From Henriciella sp. (GTDB lineage: Bacteria; Pseudomonadota; Alphaproteobacteria; Caulobacterales; Hyphomonadaceae): DNA of 64,000 nt. The stretch is taken from contig JASJAO010000002.1 in assembly GCA_030066975.1 (NCBI GenBank), positions 186,001 through 250,000 of the forward strand. Direction: 5' to 3'. How positions within the stretch are numbered: position 1 is the first letter of the stretch; every line of letters starts with the position of its first letter. A program made the translations under genes and the position numbers. The notes beneath the pieces were generated by a model. The model searched no databases. It worked only from the letters and a program-made list of their open reading frames with translations, and was not told the origin of the DNA. Shown piece by piece: positions 40,640 through 44,698 of the stretch.

Positions 40640-41590
40640 TCATGCGGTACCGAGATCATAAGCCATGGCCACATCACAGCGTTCATAACGCGATCCGAAC
40701 CGGCGCATGATCTCTGCATTGTGTTCGAACCCCAATTTCTCATACAGATGGATCGCGGCTTCGCATTTCTTATTGGTCAGCAGGAAGAGTTCATCCATCT
40801 CCATGTCCCGCGCGCGTTCCAGCACGTTTTCGAGCAGGAACTCACCGGCCTTCCGGCCGCGTGCGGAGGCGAGTACGCCCATTTTGGTGAGCTCAAACAC
40901 ACCCGGTTCAATCGGCATCAGAGCACAGGTCCCGACGATCCCAAGGCCAGCGGCTTCAACGAACAGGATCTTCCCGCCTTTGTCGATAATGTAGCGTTTG
41001 GGATCAGACAGGACACGTTCATCGGTGTCTTCCATTTGAAACATATCGCTGACCCATTCCTCATTGATCGAATAGAAAAGCGGCGCGAGTTCATCGGTAT
41101 AGTCGACGATGGAAAGCGTCTGTGTGGCGCGAGACAGGAGCGATTGGTGATCCATGGCGTCTTCAATCCTCTTCAAATGATCCAGAAAATCTGTAGGGGG
41201 CCCCGCGCACAGCGCGGCTGCGGCGCGCGCGACGCCCGGAAACACCGTCTCTTTCATTAGGTGCACGGCGTCTTGCCCCGCCGCTGAGAGCGATATGGTC
41301 TTCTGTCGGCGATCGGCTTTCGATGTCTCGGTTTTCACCAGGCCAAGGTCGAGCAGGTTGTTCAGGCAACGTGTGACGGCGGGTTGGCTGACCCCCAGCG
41401 CATCTACCGCTTCGTTCACTGTGAGATGGCCATAGCGATCGAGTGCGGTGAGCAAGGGGAAGTGACTGGGCTGAGTTTTGAGACCGGCTTGCTCATGGAT
41501 TTTCAAAGCATCGGCTTGCATCCGTTCGGCCAGCCGCTTCAACCGGCTTCCGAGCGCGAGATGGCCAAGCTCTTCAAGAATATCAGGCAC
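40640..41590 (-). CDS. MarR-type regulator fused to a GNAT acetyltransferase
   Basis: 316 residues in two parts. Residues 1-160 are a MarR winged helix (HFPLLTALDRYGHLTVNEAVDALGVSQPAVTRCLNNLLDLGLVKTETSKADRRQKTISLSAAG). Residues 165-316 are a GNAT domain (ILFVEAAGLGIVGTCALMPI, ELTKMGVLASARGRKAGEFLLENVLERA as acetyl-CoA loop, ELFLLTNKKCEAAIHLYEKLGFEH). Such fusions are known in proteobacteria; the link between DNA binding and acetylation is not understood. It follows the pseudouridine synthase start on the same strand with a 42-bp gap. Confidence 0.9.
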   Translation of the reverse strand: MPDILEELGHLALGSRLKRLAERMQADALKIHEQAGLKTQPSHFPLLTALDRYGHLTVNEAVDALGVSQPAVTRCLNNLLDLGLVKTETSKADRRQKTISLSAAGQDAVHLMKETVFPGVARAAAALCAGPPTDFLDHLKRIEDAMDHQSLLSRATQTLSIVDYTDELAPLFYSINEEWVSDMFQMEDTDERVLSDPKRYIIDKGGKILFVEAAGLGIVGTCALMPIEPGVFELTKMGVLASARGRKAGEFLLENVLERARDMEMDELFLLTNKKCEAAIHLYEKLGFEHNAEIMRRFGSRYERCDVAMAYDLGTA

Positions 41591-42299: not shown

Positions 42300-42431
42300 C
42301 TAGTCTTTGGCCTCGTTGGCACTGTCCTTGAGGACTTTGCCAACCGTCTCGACATCCTCACCGACACCCGCAATCGTGTTGCAGGCGGCCAGAATGGGAA
42401 GGGCGATCAGGGCTGCGATCAAAGCTTTCAT
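42300..42431 (-). CDS. Entericidin-type small lipoprotein
   Basis: 43 residues: lipoprotein signal MKALIAALIALPILAAC with lipobox LAAC (14-17), then NTIAGVGEDVETVGKVLKDSANEA, the entericidin A/B pattern. The start is fixed by AGGAGAT upstream on the minus strand. Entericidins are small cell-envelope lipoproteins, described in E. coli as an antidote/toxin pair. A second, longer entericidin-like gene lies 64 bp upstream on the same strand. Confidence 0.88.
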   Translation of the reverse strand: MKALIAALIALPILAACNTIAGVGEDVETVGKVLKDSANEAKD

Positions 42432-42495
42432 AAGCGAATCTCCTAGATTGGCGCTGTAAATGGGGGCTAGGTGCCACGCTGGCAAGCCAGCGGGA

Positions 42496-42765
42496 TCAAT
42501 TCTGACGCGGTGTTGGCGGCGGCGCAGGGGCGCGGCAAGGTGGCAGACCGCCCCCCGCCAACTCATCCCCATAAGGATCGCAGGCGTCTCCGGCTTCGGC
42601 GCGATAGCGGTTTGAGGATCGGGGGCCGAACATCTCGTCGCGCGCCTCGTTTGCAAGGTGCGAAACACCCCCGCCGACAGCCTGAATGTCGCGCCCGACA
42701 CCATCAACGGTCGAGCATGCTGGCAGCATGCCACAGATGATAGCAGAAACCAGGAAAGAGCGCAT
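42496..42765 (-). CDS. Entericidin-like lipoprotein with C-terminal extension
   Basis: 89 residues: signal [17 protein letters not shown] with lipobox LPAC (14-17), [27 protein letters not shown] (entericidin core), then about 45 extra residues, Arg/Pro-rich with two Cys (ACDPYGDEL...[11 protein letters not shown]). ATG 42765 follows GGAGGTGACC, a strong ribosome site. Same strand as and upstream of the smaller entericidin. Longer than family norm (about 45). Function unknown. Confidence 0.78.
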
Positions 42766-42875
42766 GGTCACCTCCAAGATTGAACCGCCTGTATCCCATC
42801 CCCCTTGAAACCGCACAAGTGTATTCCCCTCCACCGCGACTCCCTGCTAAAGGGGCGGACGAGAGAGGACTTCGC

Positions 42876-43538
42876 ATGAAAACCGCTGTCATTGTCTTTC
42901 CCGGATCGAATTGCGATCGCGATGCCCAAGTCGCCCTGCGCCAGACAACCGGGGTTGAACCCGTGATGATCTGGCACAAGGACGGAACCATCCCGGAAGA
43001 TACGGACCTGGTCATGGTTCCGGGTGGGTTTTCATATGGCGATTATCTGCGCTGTGGGGCGATTGCGGGGAATTCACCTGTCATCAGCCAGCTGAACGCC
43101 CATGCTGAGCGCGGCGGTTACGTGCTTGGCGTCTGCAACGGGTTCCAGATCCTGTGTGAGACCGGATTGCTGCCAGGCGCCTTGATCCGAAATGCGGGAC
43201 TTGAATTTGTCTGCAAGCCGCAGGCGCTGAAAGTCGACAACGCCAATACGCCTTTCACCAGCGCCTATGCCGGAGACACTGAAATCTCGATCCCGATCGC
43301 CCATCATGACGGGAATTATGTGGCCGATGAGGACACGTTGAATGCGCTGGAAGATGAGGGACGGGTCGTCTTTCGCTATGTCGGCAATCCGAATGGCGCT
43401 TCGCGAGACATTGCCGGGATCGTCAGTGAGAATGGCCGGGTCCTTGGCATGATGCCGCACCCGGAACGCGCCATTGGCGGGCATGAAGGCGGAACGGACG
43501 GGATCGGCATGTTTGAAAGCCTGGTCGCAGCGATTTAA
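42876..43538 (+). CDS. purQ: Phosphoribosylformylglycinamidine synthase, glutaminase subunit PurQ
   Basis: Class I glutamine amidotransferase supplying ammonia to PurL in purine synthesis. 220 residues: [14 protein letters not shown] start, [18 protein letters not shown], nucleophile elbow [11 protein letters not shown] (Cys near 86), and C-terminal [11 protein letters not shown] (catalytic His and Glu). ATG 42876 with AGAGAGGA upstream is chosen over the longer frame from 42780. Its TAA overlaps the stop of the next gene (TTAA, 43535-43538). purL lies 3.4 kb downstream; purS is not visible. Confidence 0.97.
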
Positions 43539-44698
43539 ACCCGCGCCGCCAGCATGGCATGACCGTTGACCATGCGTTCCACCTCGCTCTGATCCACCTC
43601 CAGGTTCCAGTCGCCTTTGCCCACCGACCCGCCGAGCAGGATCCCGGTTTTACGCGGGAAGGAATAGAGCAGACCATGATCTGCGAACCGGCCGACATAG
43701 CCATAATCGATATCGCTCTGTGGCAAGAGCACTGAAAGCTGACCCCGCGCGGGAATAATCTCTTCGTCTTCGAACACTTTTCCCGCGCCAAGTCCCAGAC
43801 AGTTCACGATCGAAGCTTCCGTGAGCCTCGCGACATCGTCCTGGCTCTCAAATGTCCGCTCCACCATTTGTCCCCCGGCGCCCCTGAAGTCATTCACCAG
43901 GGCGCGCAGATAGATGTCCGGATCGATCATCAAGGTATAATAGCCATCCCAATGGGGGCTCCCGAACGGCCCGCCCCCGGATCGATTGCGCACAAGACCG
44001 GGATAGAGATCGTCGCCACCCATATAAGGATAGAGCGTGCTCATCGGTCGGCGGCTGAGAGAATATTGACGGATCCAATATACGCCGTAGCGCGGATCAT
44101 TAGCATAACGCACAAACCTGTAGAACGCGATCCGCGAGGCCTGGTGCAGCATGTCCAAGGTCTCAGGTGAGACCTGATCCCGTTCGAACAGGCTGACCGG
44201 GTTCCACATCGCCCCGGCGACGTTTGAGGTCGTATAAGGCGGGAATTCTGCTGCATAGATGGTGACGTTTGCACCGGCCCGTTGCAGCTCCAGCGCCGTG
44301 GACAGACCGATCGCACCACATCCGAGCACAGCAATATCCCGCTGGCCATGGGGCTTCACCATGGCCGCAGCCAGCTCCGCAACACCCCAGGACAGCGAAA
44401 CACCACCACCGCCATGCCCGTAATTGTGCACGACGTGTTTGTTCCCAAGCTTTACCGCTTCCAGCCTGGGCCCCGGTTTGCGGAAGGGCCTCAGGCCGAC
44501 AATCGTTCGGGTGACCCGATCGAACGAGGATCTGATCGGCGCCATCGGTGCGTCCAGCGGCAAGACCGGCGCCGATTGCAGCATGGACGGGATAGTTTGC
44601 TGTGGAGCTGGGCTGGTCGTGCAGTTTGCCAACCCACCAAGCGAAAGCGCCGCTCCGCCACGAAGTAAAACATCTCGTCTTCGCATTCGCGTCCCCAA
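43535..44698 (-). CDS. Tat-lipoprotein FAD-dependent oxidoreductase, circularly permuted D-amino-acid-oxidase family
   Basis: 387 residues. RRRDVLL with lipobox LANC (23-26) suggests Tat-exported lipoprotein. The order of DAO motifs is reversed from normal: VGLRPFR-GPRLE (67-80) and [17 protein letters not shown] (89-105), usually C-terminal, come before the FAD site [16 protein letters not shown] (124-139) and [14 protein letters not shown], with [11 protein letters not shown] and [23 protein letters not shown] near the end. Thus the last block of a DAO chain sits at the N terminus. Antisense between purQ and the DUF418 gene; shares TTAA with the purQ stop. Substrate unknown. Confidence 0.85.

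Follow-up and report, generated by a model that had tools for sequence, protein, structure and literature searches.

The closest described relatives of the protein considered here are the D-amino acid oxidases (DAAO) and D-aspartate oxidases (DASPO), in which the canonical order places the GxGxxG motif first and the GHGG block last. The HNYGHGG block is taken here to be the FAD-contacting block of the D-amino acid oxidases (DAOs), and Arg283 of human DAAO is presumed to be the arginine that binds the substrate carboxylate. The motifs of the solved enzymes (PDB 2du8, 1dao and 6rkf), namely GxGxxG, TT(S/T).VA...W.P, NC.G, RGQ, G(L/F)RPxR and H(N/H)YGHG, were all found in the window protein, whose best solved relative was 6rkf (1.4e-25). 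It differs from these enzymes in the reversed order of its two blocks and in the presence of a Tat-like signal.

The window protein was found to match Pfam PF01266 (DAO) well above the gathering cut-off (114 bits, E 1.4e-32, against 27.9 bits), but in two stretches, the best of which covered profile positions 1-290 of 353. Glycine oxidase ThiO (TIGR02352) was matched weakly, and membership of that family was rejected as the score of 50.7 bits lies far under the cut-off of 250.8.

No description of a permuted DAO was found in the literature searched, a scope that left most subscription journals outside. A released 'D-amino acid oxidase' has been reported from Asaia bogorensis (PMC12502724), and the word 'permuted' in PMC2916828 refers to monoamine oxidase compared with electron transfer flavoprotein.

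Structure of the gene

The window, i.e. the whole stretch of 64,000 nucleotides of DNA that was analysed, was found to contain a permuted DAO-like gene on the minus strand (Table 1). The open frame 43535-44698 encodes 387 residues from a TTG at 44698; the ATG at 44686, with GGGGAC just upstream, is probably the better start and would give 383 residues. The block order of a DAAO/DASPO-type oxidase is swapped in this protein: VGLRPFR and HNYGHGGGG precede GCGAIG, as the earlier note had claimed, at residues 67-73, 91-99 and 126-131 of the 387-residue numbering. Both blocks were found to occur once each, which agrees with the claim that every expected piece is present once, and neither a frame with two copies of either block nor a tandem intermediate was found among the fetched loci. 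An additional C-terminal block in the ordinary place was rejected on the same ground. The ARGQLSV block was located at the C-terminal end, followed by about 30 more residues.

Table 1. Location of the permuted gene and its parts in the window (residues in the 383-residue numbering)
Feature	Position	Strand	Basis
Permuted DAO-like gene, 383 aa, likelier start	43535..44686	-	ATG start, stop codon included
Tat-like signal, lipobox-like at its end, residues 1-22	44621..44686	-	sequence; similar N-termini in relatives
Block B, residues 53-112, usual C-terminal DAO block, here near the N-terminus	44351..44530	-	phmmer, block profiles, rotation
VGLRPFR, residues 63-69	44480..44500	-	alignment to human DAAO; conserved in relatives
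HNYGHGGGG, residues 87-95	44402..44428	-	phmmer alignments and 30-row alignment
Block A, residues 114-383, core of the FAD-binding and substrate domains, usual N-terminal DAO block	43538..44347	-	Pfam DAO, phmmer, rotation
GCGAIG, residues 122-127, dinucleotide-binding GxGxxG	44306..44323	-	phmmer alignments and 30-row alignment

Comparison with canonical chains

In a phmmer search against the PDB, all five alignments among the matches listed were with canonical DAAO/DASPO chains and consisted of two stretches in the opposite order to the query. In 6rkf, query residues 121-372 corresponded to chain positions 14-259 and query residues 64-115 to positions 281-335. With a profile of 30 permuted sequences, none of the best 60 of 76 PDB rows suggested the permuted order, as judged by the best stretch per chain, and in the top 17 DAAO/DASPO chains this stretch was the core at the chain start or, in 9vpf, block B at the end.

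The chain without its first 48 residues was cut and rejoined in all 334 rotations, each of which was scored against a profile of seven canonical bacterial DAOs. The unrotated chain gave two profile matches of 130.2 and 53.6 bits, whereas the best rotation, starting at residue 114 (the block joint), gave a single match of 194.6 bits that spanned profile positions 2-313. More than 150 bits were obtained in 64 of the 334 rotations, with all cuts lying between residues 89 and 152, and the best of 50 shuffles reached -0.5 bits; chance was excluded because of this control and because the best rotation falls at the joint. No single full-length match was obtained when the signal was kept in the chain, because the signal then sits inside the rotated chain. 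In blastp the rotated chain outscored the unrotated chain with all 18 canonical sequences listed.

The spacing from YGHGG to GxGxxG was found to be 33 residues in 123 of the 146 permuted frames measured (four of 150 lacked the search motif), and 37 in all five members of the clade formed by loci L188, L189, L237, L238 and L239. For comparison, the residues from the YGHGG tyrosine to the C-terminus were added to those from the nearest ATG to GxGxxG in 17 canonical frames, which gave sums of 31-40 in ten, 45 in one and 59-341 in four, the latter with a distant ATG or an extra domain; no sum was obtainable in two. The joint looks like a direct head-to-tail fusion because its length of 33 is close to the free-end sum in ten of the 17 canonical frames. 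The earlier view that the order was rearranged rather than a piece lost is supported by the rise from 130.2 to 194.6 bits on profile rotation, together with the nearly constant joint in the 150 distinct permuted frames.

Conserved residues

Human residue numbers were derived from the chain positions of the phmmer alignment. R66 of the window protein (R70 in the 387-residue numbering) was found to align with human Arg283, G126-G131 (387 numbering) with human G7-G12, Y345 (387 numbering) with human Y228, and a 13-residue stretch with the human LTTTDVAAGLWQP stretch. The Arg-Pro-x-Arg of GLRPxR (R66, P67 and R69), YGHGG and the GxGxxG glycines were invariant in all 30 rows of the permuted alignment. 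The position of human Tyr228, inspected by eye in the same alignment, was occupied by Tyr within the clade of the window protein and by Tyr, Asn, Ser, Leu or Gly elsewhere. An amino-acid-like substrate is favoured because the carboxylate arginine is invariant in 30 of 30 rows.

Distribution of the permuted family

Block order was classed with separate profiles of block A and block B, both taken from the 30-row permuted alignment, and 150 distinct permuted frames were found among the fetched loci. The earlier note had described a single unusual chain; its order stands, and the protein belongs to a widespread family instead of being one odd case. By record titles the family was found in Pseudomonadota, Acidobacteriota, Gemmatimonadota, Verrucomicrobiota, Bacteroidota and Myxococcota, and in a seventh phylum, Actinomycetota, through a Nonomuraea record whose permuted frame carries no signal.

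The counts from the following genome samples are lower bounds, since the samples overlap and the candidates scored per genome were limited. Among 61 genomes comprising that of the window and those of its relatives, 28 carried a permuted copy and 33 gave any match, the other matches being short FAD-motif ones. In the class sample (385 genomes, at most five candidates each) 49 genomes matched, of which 15 had a permuted copy and one (L045) a canonical copy, the rest being short matches. In the phylum sample (398 genomes, four candidates each) all 20 matching genomes were permuted. The phylum of genome G442, for which a reading as Acidimicrobiia was rejected because other genomes drawn from it group with Acidobacteria in the tree, gave 28 matching genomes of 247 (at most seven candidates each), 20 permuted and eight canonical; a canonical profile matched 22 of 199 genomes there, namely the same eight canonical and otherwise permuted ones. 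The canonical profile found 22 places in 19 of 299 genomes of the phylum of the window, 15 of these loci being permuted and the other seven (L226-L232) giving no block B match. Four of the seven were scanned and were closest to ThiO, one of them above its cut-off; other canonical-order proteins of the DAO superfamily are therefore present in that phylum.

The scan of named genomes with a permuted query confirmed at least 574 of at least 589 candidate stretches, and all 80 loci kept were permuted, a sample biased by the permuted query itself. Among 15 plasmid stretches five were permuted, nine were canonical and one (L240) was split in two frames; the annotated permuted plasmid genes were named only FAD-dependent oxidoreductase. 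The annotation of the L240 gene (2735-3798, plasmid pOM4 of Mesorhizobium onobrychidis) shows two overlapping frames divided close to the block joint, probably through a frame change within one gene. A canonical-order DAO frame with about 300 extra C-terminal residues was observed at L167 (1471-3501).

Two other genomes contained full-length homologues with 70% and 71% identity to the window copy. The window copy was closer to these copies, which belong to two other genera of the family, than to the permuted copies of its own genus (loci L005-L028), which were 34-51% identical to it and fell in several clades.

N-terminal signal

Export signals were sought with a rule of our own, consisting of RR, KR or QR followed by an uncharged hydrophobic stretch. 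This Tat-like rule fitted 140 of the 150 distinct permuted frames, with a lipobox-like end in 126, and none of the 18 canonical bacterial or archaeal frames; it also fitted 524 of 3000 shuffled N-termini and, among other frames, the first 60 residues of 115 of 896. A slightly different rule applied earlier to fewer loci had fitted 140 of 146 permuted and none of nine canonical frames. The canonical L164 showed a hydrophobic stretch in an upstream frame. Among the permuted frames missed by the rule, L081 and L101 show RR...C by eye, L043 starts at a contig edge, L187 is cut by an upstream stop and L044 has a hydrophobic start without RR. No signal was seen on inspection of the N-termini of L018, L188, L237, L238 and L239.

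The window protein starts with RRRDVLL... and fits the rule. A lipobox is expected to have Gly, Ala or Ser before the Cys, and the window copy, with Asn in LANC, is atypical in this respect, its near relatives containing LTGC, LGGC or LGAC. The export proposed earlier is supported by the Tat-like start, which prevails across the family.

Phylogeny

Blocks A and B were set in one order and then aligned. The quick tree contained 115 rows (97 permuted and 18 canonical), left of 168 after the removal of near-copies, and was found to need one order change (support 82); L044 was placed on a very long branch. The careful tree contained 71 rows: 52 of the 97 permuted rows, selected by hand and not including L044, 17 of the 18 canonical ones, and segments of human DAAO and of a fungal DASPO. 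In this phylogeny of the subfamily, of the kind proposed in the earlier note, permuted and canonical rows were separated by one branch (97/92), recovered in 98% of 200 bootstrap trees. A single permutation event would fit this tree. The permuted rows other than the five-member clade (L188, L189, L237-L239) were set apart by a less well supported branch (82/93), and in view of this branch and of the joint length peculiar to the clade, two permutation events would keep a small residual probability.

The tree is unrooted and therefore does not prove which order is older; the canonical order is suggested to be ancestral because the eukaryotic enzymes share it. The permutation may precede export, because four of the five members of one deep permuted clade have no Tat-like start; these four of the five signal-less forms share the clade with the Tat-bearing L189. 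Two plasmid records of this clade have an FAD-binding oxidoreductase and a thiamine-diphosphate enzyme as neighbours, and a different, cytoplasmic use is suggested by them. Export appears typical of the permuted family, yet in the tree its association with the permuted order goes back to few independent changes.

Gene neighbourhood

The oxidase gene was found to converge on purQ, the two ends overlapping by four bases (43535-43538), with purL further on. Besides two copies of the window locus, purQ and/or purL were near the permuted gene in 20 loci among L001-L189, about five of which repeat a genome already counted; since it is seen in those loci, the placement is a feature of the relatives of the window. 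In the window, two overlapping minus-strand frames at 42300-42834 were observed to encode short lipoprotein-like peptides that, to our eye, resemble entericidins, and a MarR-type DNA-binding domain fused to a GNAT acetyltransferase domain was observed at 40640-41590, also on the minus strand.

No conserved partner gene was found in the 85 frames scanned (45 + 40) of the 158 adjacent frames of 80 genome loci. Matches to S9 peptidases (4 of 40), Beta-lactamase-type hydrolases (3 of 45) and DUF5916 (3 of 45) were the commonest among the best 25 of 65 and the best 25 of 40 families, and assignment of a function from neighbours was rejected as these matches are too sparse to use. Gene calling was crude (longest open frames, some of them antisense to the oxidase), and the counts therefore miss some true neighbours. 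In Kozakia baliensis the permuted gene is directly followed by a cytochrome c gene. CxxCH was present in seven of the 158 adjacent frames; those of L079 and L084 resemble c-type proteins of the periplasm, and that of L123 may be another.

Discussion

The window protein is best read as having the D-amino acid/D-aspartate oxidase fold in a naturally occurring, circularly permuted form, and as acting as a Tat-exported FAD enzyme on D-amino or D-aspartate-like substrates (probability about 0.78). In this reading a turn of a few residues would link the former C-terminal segment (GLRPxR...HNYGHGG...WG helix), head to tail, with the former N-terminal FAD strand (GxGxxG). The chain would instead be open between the tail that comes after GG...GDW and the residues leading up to GLRPxR, and its new N-terminus would bear the Tat-like signal, with a lipobox in most relatives. 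The protein would fold and bind FAD in the cytoplasm, after which Tat would export it folded, and it would be held at the periplasmic side of a membrane, where D-amino or D-aspartate-like substrates would be oxidised and electrons passed to O2 or another acceptor. The fold, the FAD content, the substrate, the acceptor, the location of the window copy and the placing of the GHGG segment next to the FAD are all features that we infer from sequence; a periplasmic, usually lipid-anchored enzyme of this kind is the most likely form.

The family may instead consist of permuted DAO-fold dehydrogenases with another substrate or acceptor, such as a periplasmic cytochrome c, which would not form H2O2 as a D-amino acid oxidase does. 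The Kozakia baliensis gene order, the CxxCH frames and the varying substrate tyrosine point in this direction, but cytochrome-type neighbours are rare and the invariant carboxylate arginine speaks for an amino-acid-like substrate, so that this reading is considered rather unlikely. A swapped dimer, in which block B completes the FAD site of the neighbouring subunit and the single chain is not a true circular permutant, is compatible with the sequence and is quite improbable, as the prevailing joint length, near the free-end sum of most canonical forms compared, is what would be expected of ends that meet in a single chain.

An artefact of frameshift, gene fusion or assembly has a negligible chance of accounting for the order. 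Nothing at the window gene speaks for it, the split annotation of L240 being the one case in a relative, and it was rejected on the basis of the family and the synteny: the order is shared by 150 distinct frames, full-length homologues with about 70% identity occur in two other genomes, and the placement near purL or purQ recurs in 20 further loci.

The permuted proteins form a real and widespread branch of a known enzyme family, apparently undescribed in the literature searched and usually provided with an export signal. It is possible, at somewhat less than even odds, that a single ancient permutation made a separate bacterial DAAO/DASPO branch, and that the start, once moved off the FAD strand, allowed a Tat/lipoprotein signal to be added, giving rise to a periplasmic class in at least six phyla; this class is counted as six phyla and not seven because the actinobacterial member has no signal. 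If true, an entire FAD-binding oxidase that was circularly permuted in nature and became fixed across phyla would illustrate cleanly how a permutation may have given access to a new cellular location. DAAO engineering would gain a permuted scaffold that already exists in nature, the annotation of genes such as the plasmid ones mentioned above would be refined, and the family would point to the oxidation of D-amino acids outside the cytoplasm.
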